In this document: in pieces, positions 9,894 through 19,532 of the stretch
Position numbering within the stretch: position 1 is the first letter of the stretch
Layout of the letters: every line of letters starts with the position of its first letter
Source: a virus
IMG/VR virus record: IMGVR_UViG_3300042883_000977
Coordinates: 1 to 32,751 of that record
Length of the DNA: 32,751 bases
Direction: 5' to 3' (one strand)
The notes under the pieces: model-generated
Databases searched by the model: none
What the model saw: the letters and a program-made list of their open reading frames with translations, nothing else
Told to the model about the DNA's origin: nothing
Translations under genes and position numbers: made by a program

Positions 9894-12415
<2,522 letters not shown>

Positions 12416-12420
12416 TACAA

Positions 12421-14259
12421 ATGGCAAATAACAGAATATCATACGCATCTAGGGATTATCAGTCAATCAGGACCGAGCTCTTAAATTATACCAAAACTTA
12501 CTATCCTGACTTAATCCAAGACTTTAACGATGCTTCGGTCTTCTCCGTATTCATTGATTTAAATGCTGCGATTGCAGATAACTTACATTATAACATTGAC
12601 CGAAGTATTCAGGAGACTGTTTTACAATATGCTCAACAAAGGTCATCAGTTTATAACATTGCCAGAACCTACGGTTTAAAATTACCAGGACAAAGACCAT
12701 CAGTTGCTTTAGTTGATTTCTCAATTACAGTTCCTGCTTTTGGTGATAAAGAAGATGAAAGATACCTTGGAACATTGACAAGAGGTTCACAAGTTGTTGG
12801 TGCTGGAATTGTTTTTGAAAATGTTTATGACATTGATTTTGCTTCACCATATAATTCTCAAGGTTTTCCAAATAGATTAAAAATACCGAACTTTAACTCA
12901 AATAATGTTTTAGTTAATTATACAATCACAAAAAGAGAAATTGTTGTAAATGGTATTACGAAGGTATTCAAACGAGTTATTGGGGCCAATGATGTTAAAC
13001 CATTCTTTGAATTATTTTTACCTGAAAAAAATGTGTTAGGTATTACAAGTGTGTTATTAAAGAATGGTACACAATATACAAACACACCAACAACTGCGGA
13101 GTTTTTAGGTGTTGATAATAGATGGTATGAAGTGGACGCCTTAGCCGAAGATAGAGTCTTTATTGAAGACCCTGCAAAAGTTTCTGACCAACCTGGTATT
13201 AAAGTTGGTAAGTATATCCAAACTCAAGATAGATTTATTACCGAATATACCCCTGAAGGATTTAAGAAAATGACATTTGGTGGTGGTACAAATACGGCTC
13301 AAGACCAATTGAATCAGTTTACAACTTTAGGTACAACATTAGAACTTCAAAAATATTCTAACAATTTTTCATTAGGTTCAACATTAACGCCAAATTCAAC
13401 ATTGTTTATTCAATATAGAGTTGGTGGTGGATTGGCAACAAACTTAGGAACAAACGTAATCAATCAAATTGGTACTGTTTCATTCTTTGTTAATGGTCCA
13501 TCTGAGACAACAAACTCAGCGGTAGTTAATTCATTAAGATGTGTTAACGTAACTGCTGCGGTAGGTGGAGCGGGCATTCCATCATTAGAAGAAATTAGAA
13601 ACTATGTATCGTTTAACTTTGCGGCTCAAAAGAGAGCGGTTACCGTACAGGATTATGAGTCAATTATTAGAAACATGCCAGCTCAGTTTGGTGCACCTGC
13701 AAAAGTATCTATCACAGAAAATGATAACAAGATATTAATTCAAATATTATCTTATGACACTTCGGGTAAATTAACCAATATCGTTTCAAATACTTTGAGA
13801 CAAAACATTGCAAATTATTTATCAAACTACCGAATGATGAATGATTATATTTCAATATTCAGTGCTGAGGTTATTGACTTGAGTGTTGATGTTGCAATTG
13901 TATTAGATTCCGCCCAAAACTCAGGACAAGTCATTTCAAGTGTTATTGATAAAATATCTGCATACTTTAACCCTCAATCAAGACAATTAGGTCAGAATGT
14001 TTATCTATCCGAAATTAGGAGTATTATTCAAAATACAAATGGTGTATTAACCGTTTCAACTTTAAATGTGTTTAATGAAGTTGGTGGTCAATATTCATCC
14101 GCTGAAACATCTATGGAATATTCAGACCCTGAATTAAAACTTATTGGTCCTGTTGACGATACTATTTTTGCTCAACCATCACAAGTGTATCAGATTAGAT
14201 ACCCTGGTAAAGACATTAGAGTTTCGGTTAAGAACTTCCAATCAATTACTTTTTCTTAA
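12421..14259 (+). CDS. 6: Baseplate wedge protein, gp6 / baseplate J-like
   Basis: Forms the wedge ring that joins the hub to the periphery of the baseplate. The N-terminus (ISYASRDYQSIRTELLNY, then ASVFSVFIDLNAAIADNLHY) is typical of gp6-like proteins. In the second half the baseplate J signature appears: IPSLEEIRNYVSFNF, KRAVTVQDYESIIRNM and a following AKVSITE strand, near residues 380-440. At 612 residues it is close to T4 gp6 (660). The gene starts 5 nt after gp25. A TATAAATA sequence, identical to the T4 late promoter box, lies at 12403-12410, but inside the gp25 coding end, so it may be chance. The stop overlaps a weak AT-rich hairpin (GTTAAGAA 14227-14234 with TTCTTAAC 14253-14260) followed by a T-rich run, which could act as a poor terminator. 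Confidence 0.88.
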   Translation: MANNRISYASRDYQSIRTELLNYTKTYYPDLIQDFNDASVFSVFIDLNAAIADNLHYNIDRSIQETVLQYAQQRSSVYNIARTYGLKLPGQRPSVALVDFSITVPAFGDKEDERYLGTLTRGSQVVGAGIVFENVYDIDFASPYNSQGFPNRLKIPNFNSNNVLVNYTITKREIVVNGITKVFKRVIGANDVKPFFELFLPEKNVLGITSVLLKNGTQYTNTPTTAEFLGVDNRWYEVDALAEDRVFIEDPAKVSDQPGIKVGKYIQTQDRFITEYTPEGFKKMTFGGGTNTAQDQLNQFTTLGTTLELQKYSNNFSLGSTLTPNSTLFIQYRVGGGLATNLGTNVINQIGTVSFFVNGPSETTNSAVVNSLRCVNVTAAVGGAGIPSLEEIRNYVSFNFAAQKRAVTVQDYESIIRNMPAQFGAPAKVSITENDNKILIQILSYDTSGKLTNIVSNTLRQNIANYLSNYRMMNDYISIFSAEVIDLSVDVAIVLDSAQNSGQVISSVIDKISAYFNPQSRQLGQNVYLSEIRSIIQNTNGVLTVSTLNVFNEVGGQYSSAETSMEYSDPELKLIGPVDDTIFAQPSQVYQIRYPGKDIRVSVKNFQSITFS

Positions 14260-14351: not shown

Positions 14352-17300
14352 ATGGGTCAATCATATAGAATAAGGACTGAATTAGGGGTTAACAAAACAA
14401 TCAACGTACAATTAGACCAAGAGTTTGAACAGTTAGAGATTTTATCTTTAAAAATACAACAAGAGGATGTCTATATTAGAAGTTGTGCCGATTATGGAGT
14501 CATTGTTGGTAGGGTTACCGCTAACAATGGTTTTGGATTACCAAACGCAAGGGTGTCAATATTCATACCTATCACAACGGTAGACGAATCAAACCCAATC
14601 ATTTCAAGTATATATCCGTACAAATCTCCAACGGATAAAAATGAAGATGGTTATAGATACAATCTTTTACCTTACGAAAAATCATACTCAACTCACGCAG
14701 CGACAGGTACAATACCATCAAGATTGGATGTACTGACAGGAACAACCGCTGTTGAAATATATGACAGATATTATAAGTTCACAGCCAAAACAAATGATAG
14801 TGGGGATTACATGATAATGGGGGTACCATTAGGTTTTCAAACTGTTGTTATGGATGTTGACTTGTCTGATATTGGAGAGTTTTCATTGACACCACAAGAT
14901 TTAATTAGAATGGGTCTTGCAACCGAGGCTCAAGTTGCGGGTAATCGTTTTAGAACATCAACAGATTTAAACTCATTACCTCAAATTATTAATTTAGTTA
15001 AAGGTATTGAAATTTCGCCACTTTGGGGAGACCCTGAAATTTGTGATATAGCAATTAATCGTCTTGATTTTGATTTAAGAGATAATGCAAATGTTAATAT
15101 ACAACCAACGTCAGTTTTCATGGGGTCGATTTATTCTACATCTGATGCTTATCGAGTTAGGAGAAACGCTAAACCCAAAGATGATATGGGTAATCTTTGT
15201 AGTTTACAATCAGGACCTGGTCAAATATTGGCAATTAGACAAACCATCCAACAAGATACTACTGGTAATCCAATACTGGAACAATATCAATTAGAACAAG
15301 CTGGAAATATTATTGATGGTGATGGAGTTTGGTTGACCGAATTACCAATGAATTTGGATTATTACATAACTAATGAATTCGGTGAAAAAGTTATATCAAA
15401 TGACCCAACTATAGGTATTCCAACTAAGGCAAAATATAGATTTAAAATTAAATGGACACAACCAACAGCATTGACTGAGCAAACAAGACGACCATATTTT
15501 TTAGTTCCTAACGTTAGGGAGTATGGTTGGAGTAATACTATAATCGACCCAAATTATTTATCAACAAGTTCATCTGAGGGAAAAAAATTAGCAGGGTCAT
15601 ATTATTTTGGATTAGATTGGACAGGTTATACTAACACTACCGCGGCAATAAATTGTGATGATACCTTTTACCAATTTGAATTTAACAAAGTGTATACTGT
15701 TTCAGGTTTGATTGATGAATTTAAAAATGGTACTAAAGGTAGATTTATAGGTATTAAAGAAATTGAAAGTCAAGATTGTGATAGTACTATTAATAAATTT
15801 CCTGTAAATGAAGGATTTAGAAATTTTGATTTAATATATTTCTTGTTCTCAATTATATTTCAAGTAATTCAAATTATTGGTATTCCATTGTTAACGTCTT
15901 ACCACGTTATTGCATATCTTTGGAATAATTTTGCAGTTCCTTTAATAATTGCATTAAGCGCATGGATTTTAAAAAATATAATTGAGTTATGGATAACTTC
16001 TGCGAGTTTGTTTGCTTCGTCGGCAGTCTTGCCATTTCTTCTTCCTGCGGCACAGACAACAGCTCTACAGGCGCTTGGTTGGACAGTGCTTGGTGTTTTT
16101 ATTGGTACACTTCTTTTTAAATTTAGATTTAGAAAATTTAATAGATTCAAATTACCAATGATAACATATCCTGATTGTCAAGCCTGTGAATGTAGTCCTG
16201 AAACTTCATCGGATTCTAGCTCTTCAGTACCAACATCATCACTGGTTAGTCAATTATCTAATCCTTCATTTTATTATGATAATTTGGTTGCATATCAAGA
16301 ATCGATATCTACAATACCACCCGATAACGAAAATTATTTTACCTATAATTCTACTGACGCTATAATGAAAAGTCAGGCGATTGGTGGGTTTACTGGTCAA
16401 GAAAAAAACCCAACTAGATTTAAAACAGGTGTTAGTGAAATTGCCACATTTCCTGACGGAACTAGAAAGTTTGCGGTTTCAAGAACAATAATGCCAGGAG
16501 AAAGAATTAATATTTATAATACAAGAAATAAGTATTTTCAAGGGGTTAATAAAATAAAAGTAACTTTTGCTTCAGATATAAATAACTCAAATGGTCTATA
16601 CCATTATGATAATACTTTAACTATAGTATCTCCTGGTGAATTTCCTGTAGGTGCATTATTAACATTTGTAAATCCTGAACAAACAAAAGATAAAAATTAT
16701 CTATGGTCGGGTACTACTTCAGTTGGAAAGGCTCTACTTAGAGGTATTAATGGTAAAATACAAACGGACCAATTTGTTAGTCAAGTTTATTATGCTAACC
16801 CAACAGATAATACTCAAACCACTAATTTATCTACATTATATACTATTCCAAGTGCAACGACTCAATGTGTTGATAGTATTACCATTTCGGCAACAACTAT
16901 AGGTACAGTACAATATTATAACTGTTCATCTGTTAGTGTTATTTATAGTGCAGGTACATTAGGTGTACATACAATTACTGACACAAATTGTATTAATTTA
17001 AGTAATTTAGGTGGTACTGCCGAGTATATTGTGATTAACAGTGGTGATACATGTCAAAGATATATTTACCCATCTGATATAGAATATTATCAAGTATTAA
17101 CAGCAATCACAATTACTACAAATATTGTTAATGGAGTTCCACAATATTCAATACCTAATTTAGGGACGGGAATAAGTATTTGGAATACGTTAAATTCTGC
17201 TAACGAGATTCAATCCTATAAAGAAGTTAAGGGAACTTTAGGTACCAAGGGATGGTTAGAGGAAGCACCTGCAGAAAATCTACCAACAAGTTTATTTTCT

Positions 17301-19532
17301 GATTTTTCAAGTCAAACTATTTTAATATTACAAAGAGGGGTTGACCCATATTCTCCACTATTAACTAATCAATATGGTATTGGAAAAATATTGGGACATG
17401 CCAACGAAGACGATGTTATAATTACGGGACAAACTAGAATGAACATCCCTATTCAAAAATTACCTACAGGGTCATTAACTACTGTCCAACAACACAACCA
17501 ACAAGATAATATTTATTTTCCATCTTATGTCTATACACCAGGATTTACGGGGTCAACAACACCAGGATTACAATTCTCAGCATATTCGACAAGTAATGTT
17601 GGTTATTATGGGGCGTTAGATTCAATCACACCTGATAGAAAAATTGCTTACAAAGTTGGAAATAATACCTATTATGGATTTTCAAGTGGTGTTATCAACA
17701 AATCACCATCATATGGAATTGCAAAAGGTGTTTCAAGTAAAATAAATAATATAAATGTGTATTATGATAGTTCAGTTAGTATTGGAAAATATGACAGTGC
17801 TGAAGATTTGTCAGGTGGTGCAATATTCACATTAAAACCATTGGTTTTAAATACTATTATTATTTCTATCCCGACTTATCTGGCATATGACTCACCACCA
17901 GTCTCAACTTATTTTAGTCCAATACTATATCCAACATTAACGGGTACAAGCGCTTTGAATATTACTAATTATTCAAAAAATGTTATGAGGACTGATAGAT
18001 TACCATCTTCGGATTATATTGATAGTGGGGATTTAAATGGTAATGCTAGTTTATTACAAGAAAATATTGGGTTTTCGGCTTATGTTATAAGTGGACCAGA
18101 AAACGGTGATACTTCTATTGGATTTTCAACAGGGGCATCCCAAGTAACACAAGATATTGAAGGTCAACTTGCAAGTGAAAATGTTTTAAAAACATTAAGT
18201 ACTTGTGAAAATATGGTTGGTCTTACTTGTTATAGTGGCAATGGAGTTACCTTTGGAGTTAATACTGGATGTCAGGGAACAGATACTGTTGAAAACGGTT
18301 GTTATGTTTTTATGGATGAACCTTTGATTGATTTACAAAAAGATATAAATTCATTTGCTGAATGGGGCTATAGATTTAGATTTTTTTATGGTTTATGTCG
18401 TGGAGTTTTATCTCAAACATTTACAAACAATTGGGTTAATGGTTCCTTATTTACATTCCCAATACAAGTAGATACTTATTTTGACAAACAAAATAAACCA
18501 TTACCTCCTGAATTTGCAAAAGAACTTGTTTATTTTGATGATAAGACAAACAATTTCTACTACAGAAGTTCTCCTTATTTTTCAGGTGCAACATCTCAAA
18601 GATTTATAGGTAGACCAACAACTGGTTTAATTTCGCCTGTTAATAGACGAAATTTATTGTTCCCAACAACAATTATTAACTTGGGTATTAAAGACGATTT
18701 TTACCAAGAAATAATATTTGACCCATCAGCAAAAGGTTATATTATGAATACTTTAAATCCAACAAGTTACTCAGATACTTCTGATTTGGTTAATTTATTT
18801 GTAATATCAAGAATAACTGATGAAGGATTTTTAAGTCAACTTATTCCTACAGGTAATAATGGTTTAAATCAATTATTTAGTAGACCCGATAGACGAATTG
18901 ATGGTGACTTAGCTCAAAGTATGTCAATCAACTCTGAATATGGTGTAATACCTTTTTCACCTGAATACTATCGTGTTTATGGTAATAGTAATGACCCTGT
19001 TGTTATTTTAGGTGGACTTGATAATCCAACAATGGGTATATTCTTTTCATCAACAACAGTTGATTTACAAAACAAAGATTTTATAACACCAGGTGTAATT
19101 GATTTTAGACCATCAAACAATGCCAATGCAATCACTTATCCTTATGGCATTAAGTCACAATATGTACCATTTTATCAATGGGGATTAAAACAACCATCAA
19201 TTCAAAGTATTTTTGGTTCACAGTATAATGATTGGGTGACAAATCAATCACCAACTATTAGTAATTCAGGTATTTTTGGATATAATTACCAATCATTGGA
19301 TAGAAGAAATACGGGAACACCGAGTTATTTTATTGGTTCAGATACACAAGTAAGTGACATATACGAAAGAGGTTACATTTTTAATGTTAAACCTAATGGT
19401 GATTATTCTTACGATGGTGGAACATACCCAAGTAAATTCTTAGTTAGTGCTCCATTCCATTTTTATTTTGGAATAAATGTAGGATTGACAGCGTTAGATA
19501 AATTTAAAACAAAATATTCTGTAGGTGAATAA
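14352..19532 (+). CDS. Giant baseplate/tail protein with Ig-like domain and hydrophobic multi-helix segment (1726 aa)
   Basis: The longest gene in the window and not a recognised family as a whole. Residues about 50-176 look like a carboxypeptidase-regulatory/CnaB-like beta-sandwich: GVIVGRVTANNGFGLPNARV at the start and YKFTAKTNDSGDYMIMGVPLG later, with a long insertion between. Residues about 492-596 are strongly hydrophobic and could make three or four membrane helices (for example LIYFLFSIIFQVIQIIG, PLIIALSAWIL, TVLGVFIGTLLF), ending in a basic stretch (KFRFRKFNRFK) and a Cys motif DCQACEC, then a Ser-rich linker. The remaining 1100 residues are beta-rich, Asn/Ser/Thr/Tyr-rich and without known motifs. 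Position directly after gp6 is where T4 carries gene 7, but no gp7 similarity is visible. A virion role is likely from context; the hydrophobic segment is unusual for a baseplate protein. Confidence 0.8.
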   Translation: MGQSYRIRTELGVNKTINVQLDQEFEQLEILSLKIQQEDVYIRSCADYGVIVGRVTANNGFGLPNARVSIFIPITTVDESNPIISSIYPYKSPTDKNEDGYRYNLLPYEKSYSTHAATGTIPSRLDVLTGTTAVEIYDRYYKFTAKTNDSGDYMIMGVPLGFQTVVMDVDLSDIGEFSLTPQDLIRMGLATEAQVAGNRFRTSTDLNSLPQIINLVKGIEISPLWGDPEICDIAINRLDFDLRDNANVNIQPTSVFMGSIYSTSDAYRVRRNAKPKDDMGNLCSLQSGPGQILAIRQTIQQDTTGNPILEQYQLEQAGNIIDGDGVWLTELPMNLDYYITNEFGEKVISNDPTIGIPTKAKYRFKIKWTQPTALTEQTRRPYFLVPNVREYGWSNTIIDPNYLSTSSSEGKKLAGSYYFGLDWTGYTNTTAAINCDDTFYQFEFNKVYTVSGLIDEFKNGTKGRFIGIKEIESQDCDSTINKFPVNEGFRNFDLIYFLFSIIFQVIQIIGIPLLTSYHVIAYLWNNFAVPLIIALSAWILKNIIELWITSASLFASSAVLPFLLPAAQTTALQALGWTVLGVFIGTLLFKFRFRKFNRFKLPMITYPDCQACECSPETSSDSSSSVPTSSLVSQLSNPSFYYDNLVAYQESISTIPPDNENYFTYNSTDAIMKSQAIGGFTGQEKNPTRFKTGVSEIATFPDGTRKFAVSRTIMPGERINIYNTRNKYFQGVNKIKVTFASDINNSNGLYHYDNTLTIVSPGEFPVGALLTFVNPEQTKDKNYLWSGTTSVGKALLRGINGKIQTDQFVSQVYYANPTDNTQTTNLSTLYTIPSATTQCVDSITISATTIGTVQYYNCSSVSVIYSAGTLGVHTITDTNCINLSNLGGTAEYIVINSGDTCQRYIYPSDIEYYQVLTAITITTNIVNGVPQYSIPNLGTGISIWNTLNSANEIQSYKEVKGTLGTKGWLEEAPAENLPTSLFSDFSSQTILILQRGVDPYSPLLTNQYGIGKILGHANEDDVIITGQTRMNIPIQKLPTGSLTTVQQHNQQDNIYFPSYVYTPGFTGSTTPGLQFSAYSTSNVGYYGALDSITPDRKIAYKVGNNTYYGFSSGVINKSPSYGIAKGVSSKINNINVYYDSSVSIGKYDSAEDLSGGAIFTLKPLVLNTIIISIPTYLAYDSPPVSTYFSPILYPTLTGTSALNITNYSKNVMRTDRLPSSDYIDSGDLNGNASLLQENIGFSAYVISGPENGDTSIGFSTGASQVTQDIEGQLASENVLKTLSTCENMVGLTCYSGNGVTFGVNTGCQGTDTVENGCYVFMDEPLIDLQKDINSFAEWGYRFRFFYGLCRGVLSQTFTNNWVNGSLFTFPIQVDTYFDKQNKPLPPEFAKELVYFDDKTNNFYYRSSPYFSGATSQRFIGRPTTGLISPVNRRNLLFPTTIINLGIKDDFYQEIIFDPSAKGYIMNTLNPTSYSDTSDLVNLFVISRITDEGFLSQLIPTGNNGLNQLFSRPDRRIDGDLAQSMSINSEYGVIPFSPEYYRVYGNSNDPVVILGGLDNPTMGIFFSSTTVDLQNKDFITPGVIDFRPSNNANAITYPYGIKSQYVPFYQWGLKQPSIQSIFGSQYNDWVTNQSPTISNSGIFGYNYQSLDRRNTGTPSYFIGSDTQVSDIYERGYIFNVKPNGDYSYDGGTYPSKFLVSAPFHFYFGINVGLTALDKFKTKYSVGE

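Follow-up and report, generated by a model that had tools for sequence, protein, structure and literature searches.

How contractile phages pass their DNA through membranes is poorly known, and the parts of the virion that touch a membrane have usually been sought in tape-measure proteins. In T5, pb2* contains 46 hydrophobic residues that could form two helices inserted into the outer membrane. The tape-measure protein of TP901-1 has two hydrophobic regions, but deleting one of them hardly mattered and the authors favoured a role in chaperone binding. Outside the tape-measure proteins, the RcGTA megatron is a multi-domain baseplate protein for which a membrane-pore helix has been proposed (the iris or penetration domain), and the hub protein next to it holds an Fe-S cluster bound by four cysteines. 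In T4 the gene directly after gp6 encodes gp7, a large protein that forms a heterotrimer with two gp6 copies in the wedge and is not known to have membrane segments.

The locus compared with these systems here lies in a 32.7-kb fragment of an uncultured virus record, analysed over its full 32,751 nucleotides and referred to below as the window. It encodes a protein of 1726 residues whose gene adjoins a gp25-gp6 pair, directly 3′ of gp6:

11945..12415, + strand: gp25-like baseplate wedge gene (phrog_261, 3e-18)
12421..14259, + strand: gp6/Baseplate_J wedge gene (phrog_219, 2e-24; PF04865, 2.6e-8)
14352..19532, + strand: ORF of the 1726-aa protein, member of a large family found in uncultured phages only

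Upstream in the window are genes for SSB, UvsX, an exonuclease, DnaB and a class II ribonucleotide reductase, followed by the T4-like gp25 and gp6, and the 1726-aa gene is followed by several genes that have no assignment and by a tail-fibre gene. The order exonuclease-g150-dnaB-(often rnr)-gp25-gp6-1726-aa gene-g562-g274-g369-g302-g994-g712 is constant across the related loci listed, and by this synteny the protein is presumably part of the virion. The ribonucleotide reductase of the window (9894-11753) is 68% identical to that of Mel-JY01, 63.6% to that of Vibrio phage VPs20 and 62.5% to that of an Oceanospirillum phage; since it is far closer to those phages than the structural genes are, horizontal transfer of this gene is likely. 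In L033, L042, L050, L080 and L116 it has no tblastn match, with a dnaB-gp25 interval of similar length, and in L066 the match is 34% only; the spot between dnaB and gp25 is possibly one of gene replacement.

Sequence and profile searches with the 1726-aa protein gave no Pfam, PHROG or PDB relative, the PDB matches to membrane regions of TRPV4 (E ~2 or worse) being rejected as matches of composition only. No relative was found among the isolated phages searched, and a peptide-pattern search of GTDB genomes, which distant copies could escape, returned no copy. In IMG/VR at least 589 stretches encode the family, and a second profile added more divergent members; as judged by these searches, the family is absent from the databases searched apart from the uncultured viruses of IMG/VR. 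A T4-like sheath is encoded on related contigs as long as 317 and 326 kb, and in the 317-kb relative, G008, it has genes for the tube and for a gp26-like baseplate protein next to it, which identifies a group of giant contractile-tailed phages. The tail sheath of G008 (L145, 10397-13606) has 1069 residues, of which the C-terminal third contains the sheath match, and the T4 gp18 sheath is ~400 aa shorter.

Of the family's six long contigs five encode bS21, and in G008 the bS21 gene is found opposite those for the MCP, protease, portal and terminase. PMC9723584 describes this placement for bS21 phages predicted to infect freshwater Bacteroidetes; the accessible text of that paper does not mention the 1726-aa protein. 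The likeness is known from the long relatives, the window being a fragment without the TerL/MCP/protease/portal region, and from their bS21 setting the host of the window phage is probably a Gram-negative Bacteroidetes.

The part of the 1726-aa protein that recalls the membrane segments of tape-measure proteins is an internal hydrophobic block, one unbroken stretch in one frame, with NKFPVNEGFRNFD upstream and a basic stretch and KLPMITYPDCQACEC downstream:

15777..15779, + strand: Cys476, at the upstream edge of the block, invariant (108/108)
15792..15830, + strand: residues 481-493, NKFPVNEGFRNFD, conserved upstream boundary
15831..16127, + strand: hydrophobic helical block, residues ~494-592, AlphaFold2 helices 494-557 and 561-592, probable membrane hairpins
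16119..16151, + strand: residues 590-600, KFRFRKFNRFK, basic downstream boundary
16164..16193, + strand: residues 605-614, TYPDCQACEC, with Cys609, Cys612 and Cys614 invariant (108/108 each)
16194..16250, + strand: residues 615-633, variable Ser/Thr-rich linker, pLDDT <50

The first-pass annotation had described a hydrophobic segment of ~105 residues (492-596) with three or four possible helices, bounded by the basic stretch and a DCQACEC motif, and this description holds. There are four Kyte-Doolittle peaks (residues 494-512, 528-546, 546-564 and 571-589), the best 105-residue window, from residue 489, has a mean of 1.28 where 1000 shuffles averaged 0.50 and never exceeded 1.02, and the two bounds are found at 590-600 and 608-614. 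The best 19-residue peak, 2.14, is unexceptional (mean maximum of the shuffles 1.89), so what stands out is how long the hydrophobic run is and not any single peak. The core is 5.8% charged and 66% AILMFVWC, with an Eisenberg mean H of 0.60 and a low moment of 0.20; 18-mers above 0.5 amount to 74% in the block, compared with 0-1% elsewhere in the protein. By an approximate Hessa-type score, two of the four helices are confident in the window sequence and one to five across the family, and the last 25 residues before YPxC have an average net charge of +3.6. The helices are hydrophobic, uncharged and of sufficient length to span a bilayer, and we regard a membrane character of the block as probable.

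Conservation was assessed over 108 non-redundant proteins of <95% identity. In nearly all relatives the block is framed by NKFPVN and LPMITYPxC, and inside this frame mean pairwise identity is 0.21-0.29 (0.21-0.27 at 541-600), among the most variable stretches of the protein. Homologues lacking the segment would have told against it, and none was found: the KD19 peak is at least 2.0 in all 127 distinct readable inserts, which measure 55-156 residues between the flanking motifs. A further 13 proteins were missed by the motif regex and lie outside this automatic measurement; examples of these (L091, L111, L113, L117 and L213) have the same hydrophobic character where sequence was shown. Chance or artefact as the origin of the block is ruled out by the shuffles, by its universality in the relatives and by the dN/dS values given below. 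The spacing from C476 to C609 falls into three classes, 69-101 (45 proteins), 122-137 (51) and 144-170 (12), the intervals 102-121 and 138-143 being empty. A tree built from the flanks implies at least 10 switches between short and long forms, eight of them forced by well-supported branches. Many short forms (e.g. L137 and L138, at ~540-580) have extra cysteines inside the insert, as in LCFLCG...FICNALRLSC, a possible second metal site that would replace the second hairpin.

Two further parts of the protein enter the structural comparison:

14493..15014, + strand: residues ~48-221, N-terminal CnaB/transthyretin-like beta domain, weak match to PA1324 (3qec)
18204..18398, + strand: second conserved Cys cluster (C1285, 1293, 1307, 1317, 1349), near-invariant

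AlphaFold2, run on an alignment of 76 relatives, gave a mean pLDDT of 59 for residues 1-760, within which the two helices of the block were modelled at pLDDT ~74-90. With lengths of 64 and 32 residues they are without breaks at membrane thickness, which counts against membrane hairpins. A fold in which the segment is the buried bundle of a soluble domain had been named as the outcome that would overturn the membrane interpretation; the predicted fold does not bury the block, but the Cys-bearing flanks are modelled at pLDDT <50 and the model is thus not decisive. Residues 600-1726 reach pLDDT 78 and are mainly beta. Foldseek searches of PDB and BFVD with both models gave no match at E <1e-3: the N-terminal domain matched 3qec with probability 0.99 but E 4e-3, the second Cys cluster (1285-1349), which lies in the best-conserved part of the C-terminal region, had no fold match, and parasporin hits at probability 0.09 were set aside as noise.

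The first-pass annotation had also considered such a segment unusual for a protein encoded after gp6, and the tail proteins of G008 and the proteins beside gp25 and gp6 in Mel-JY01 bear this out in having no equivalent. Over the first 100 kb of G008 the 60-residue hydrophobicity of this protein is 1.54 and the next value 1.05, and no comparable block is found in the sheath, tube, hub or baseplate genes or in a helix-rich 615-aa gene that sits after the tube and gp26-like genes. This last gene has no PHROG match and is, on position and composition, presumably that of the tape-measure protein. The second highest 60-residue stretch in the 100 kb lies near residue 566 of a 694-aa protein (L147, 13546-15630; G008 93.5-95.6 kb). 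In the Microcystis phage Mel-JY01, the nearest isolated phage, gp6 matches that of the window over its full length (1.8e-55) and the gene after it encodes 386 aa; among the proteins encoded between gp25 and the end of the downstream cluster none has a hydrophobic block of this kind, and the N-terminal profile of the 1726-aa protein has no match in this phage. A 363-aa protein further upstream in Mel-JY01 has one strong membrane peak.

Compared with T5 pb2 and the tape-measure protein of TP901-1, the 1726-aa protein differs in being encoded after gp6, in being mostly beta-rich with a low helix content outside the block, and in belonging to phages of which one encodes another, helix-rich protein as tape-measure candidate, which has no such segments. 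Identity with a tape-measure protein was rejected on these grounds, the C-terminal model being beta-rich and the gene following gp25-gp6 and not lying between the tube and hub genes, and also because there is no sequence match to the tape-measure families of PHROG and Pfam. It resembles T4 gp7 in its large size and its position directly after gp6, the gp25-gp6-gene order being fixed in the related loci, but has no sequence or fold similarity to solved baseplate-wedge proteins; it cannot be filed as either gp7 or a tape-measure protein. The likeness to RcGTA is that of a multi-domain baseplate protein with membrane-type helices, the four-cysteine site being in RcGTA in the neighbouring hub. The megatron helices form a short N-terminal iris, whereas the block described here is internal, much longer and variable, and the models of the 1726-aa protein have no fold match to solved structures.

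Between closely related phages one part of the block has been exchanged:

15940..16146, + strand: exchanged part, over which DNA similarity is missing against L004 and L005

The DNA of the window is 95.2% identical to that of L004 up to 15940 and 90.6% from 16136, with 15940-16136 as the only alignment gap, and 95.7% identical to that of L005 up to 15994 and 90% from 16146, with 15994-16146 as the only gap. The block DNA of L004 is 82-89% identical to that of the far more distant L053 and only 40-52% to that of its sister L001, the window. At 551-600 pS rises to 0.77 between L001 and L004 (elsewhere typically 0.2-0.4) and to 0.62 between L021 and L056 (elsewhere mostly 0.0-0.25), as expected for replacement by an older allele. 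The second half of the block is thus swapped between phages as a cassette. In most alignable pairs the dN/dS of the block is 0.1-0.3, which is purifying and comparable to the values for the remainder of the protein; in two exceptions, L040/L042 and L107/L108, it is ~0.95 in the insert, with few changes. Relaxed selection as the source of the variability is ruled out by these values for most pairs, and purifying selection within lineages marks the block as a maintained, traded module and not decaying sequence. Against a reading specific to the block, residues 641-700, 801-850 and 1101-1200 are also variable, and between L005 and the window the 1726-aa protein is 77% identical where gp25, gp6 and g562 are 96-100% identical, so that the whole protein changes fast and the block is its most extreme part.

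By analogy with T5 pb2* and the penetration domain of the RcGTA megatron, we favour a mechanism in which the block would be a tail module of alpha-helical hairpins that inserts into a membrane at entry, a proposal to which we give an even chance. Both ends of the block would be fixed to one soluble domain by the conserved motifs and the four invariant cysteines, and Cys476 with Cys609, Cys612 and Cys614 may form a metal, Fe-S or disulfide clamp at its base. With both ends held on one side, the simplest reading is that helices are added pairwise; they would probably be gained and lost in pairs, the short form being approximately one hairpin and the long form approximately two, although an exact helix number is a guess that depends on the model. 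Shielded inside the baseplate in the virion, the block would become exposed when the tail contracts or is triggered and would then insert into a membrane of the host envelope, where it would anchor the tail or help to open a path for the DNA; in many phages this work falls to the tape-measure protein. The second half would be swapped as a cassette probably because the membrane partner is specific to the host or to an exclusion system. The sequence analysis establishes the block and its presence in all readable relatives, the cysteine frame, the length classes, the exchange and the purifying selection; insertion into a membrane, the membrane concerned, the timing at entry, the clamp and the cause of the exchange are inferences. 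The earlier suggestion that the segment inserts into the host membrane during infection is kept as the leading idea, and a use of the block at entry could about equally prove right or wrong. Against this proposal stand the TP901-1 deletion result and the location of a wedge protein outside the tube, which would bring it up against the outer membrane, a membrane into which alpha helices seldom insert.

The TP901-1 regions, as proposed chaperone-binding sites, also agree with a role in assembly alone, in which the hairpin would tether the baseplate, while it is being built, to the cytoplasmic face of the inner membrane or to a chaperone. Synthesis takes place in the cytoplasm, and the hairpin could insert from there; the basic downstream edge fits the positive-inside rule with both ends cytoplasmic; such a tether poorly explains swaps between near-identical genomes with presumably similar hosts, and we consider it unlikely. 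We give the same low credence to the block being an oligomeric hydrophobic bundle within the baseplate, such as one along a trimer axis, that has no lipid contact and drifts because hydrophobicity alone matters. Simple long helices in the AlphaFold2 model and low identity with hydrophobicity retained would suit such a core, but 45-100 residues have almost no charge and a low hydrophobic moment, hairpin-sized pieces gained or lost 8-10 times would be hard for a core to accommodate, and the pS spikes indicate exchange rather than drift. That the block is a pore module released by protease, also suggested in the first-pass annotation, is highly improbable: no cleavage evidence was found, the flexible Ser/Thr-rich linker that would favour it lies on one side only, and the edges are conserved Cys-bearing motifs that look like a clamp and not like variable cleavage sites.

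The membrane-sited defence SNIPE reportedly acts when the genome is injected, by way of tape-measure or injection proteins, and allele trading in the block would, by analogy, suit a host-variable partner or an exclusion system. The findings suggest that in these phages a baseplate protein rather than a tape-measure protein touches the host membrane at infection. More speculatively, this giant contractile-tailed lineage might have shifted membrane penetration from the tape-measure protein to a protein of the baseplate, in the form of a Cys-clamped hairpin cassette with stepwise helix number whose alleles are recombined for host membrane partners or for escape from exclusion and defence. If true, the block would be a new, testable entry component in an abundant group of uncultured freshwater phages, and its natural variation would provide a handle on what selects the membrane-penetrating parts of phages.
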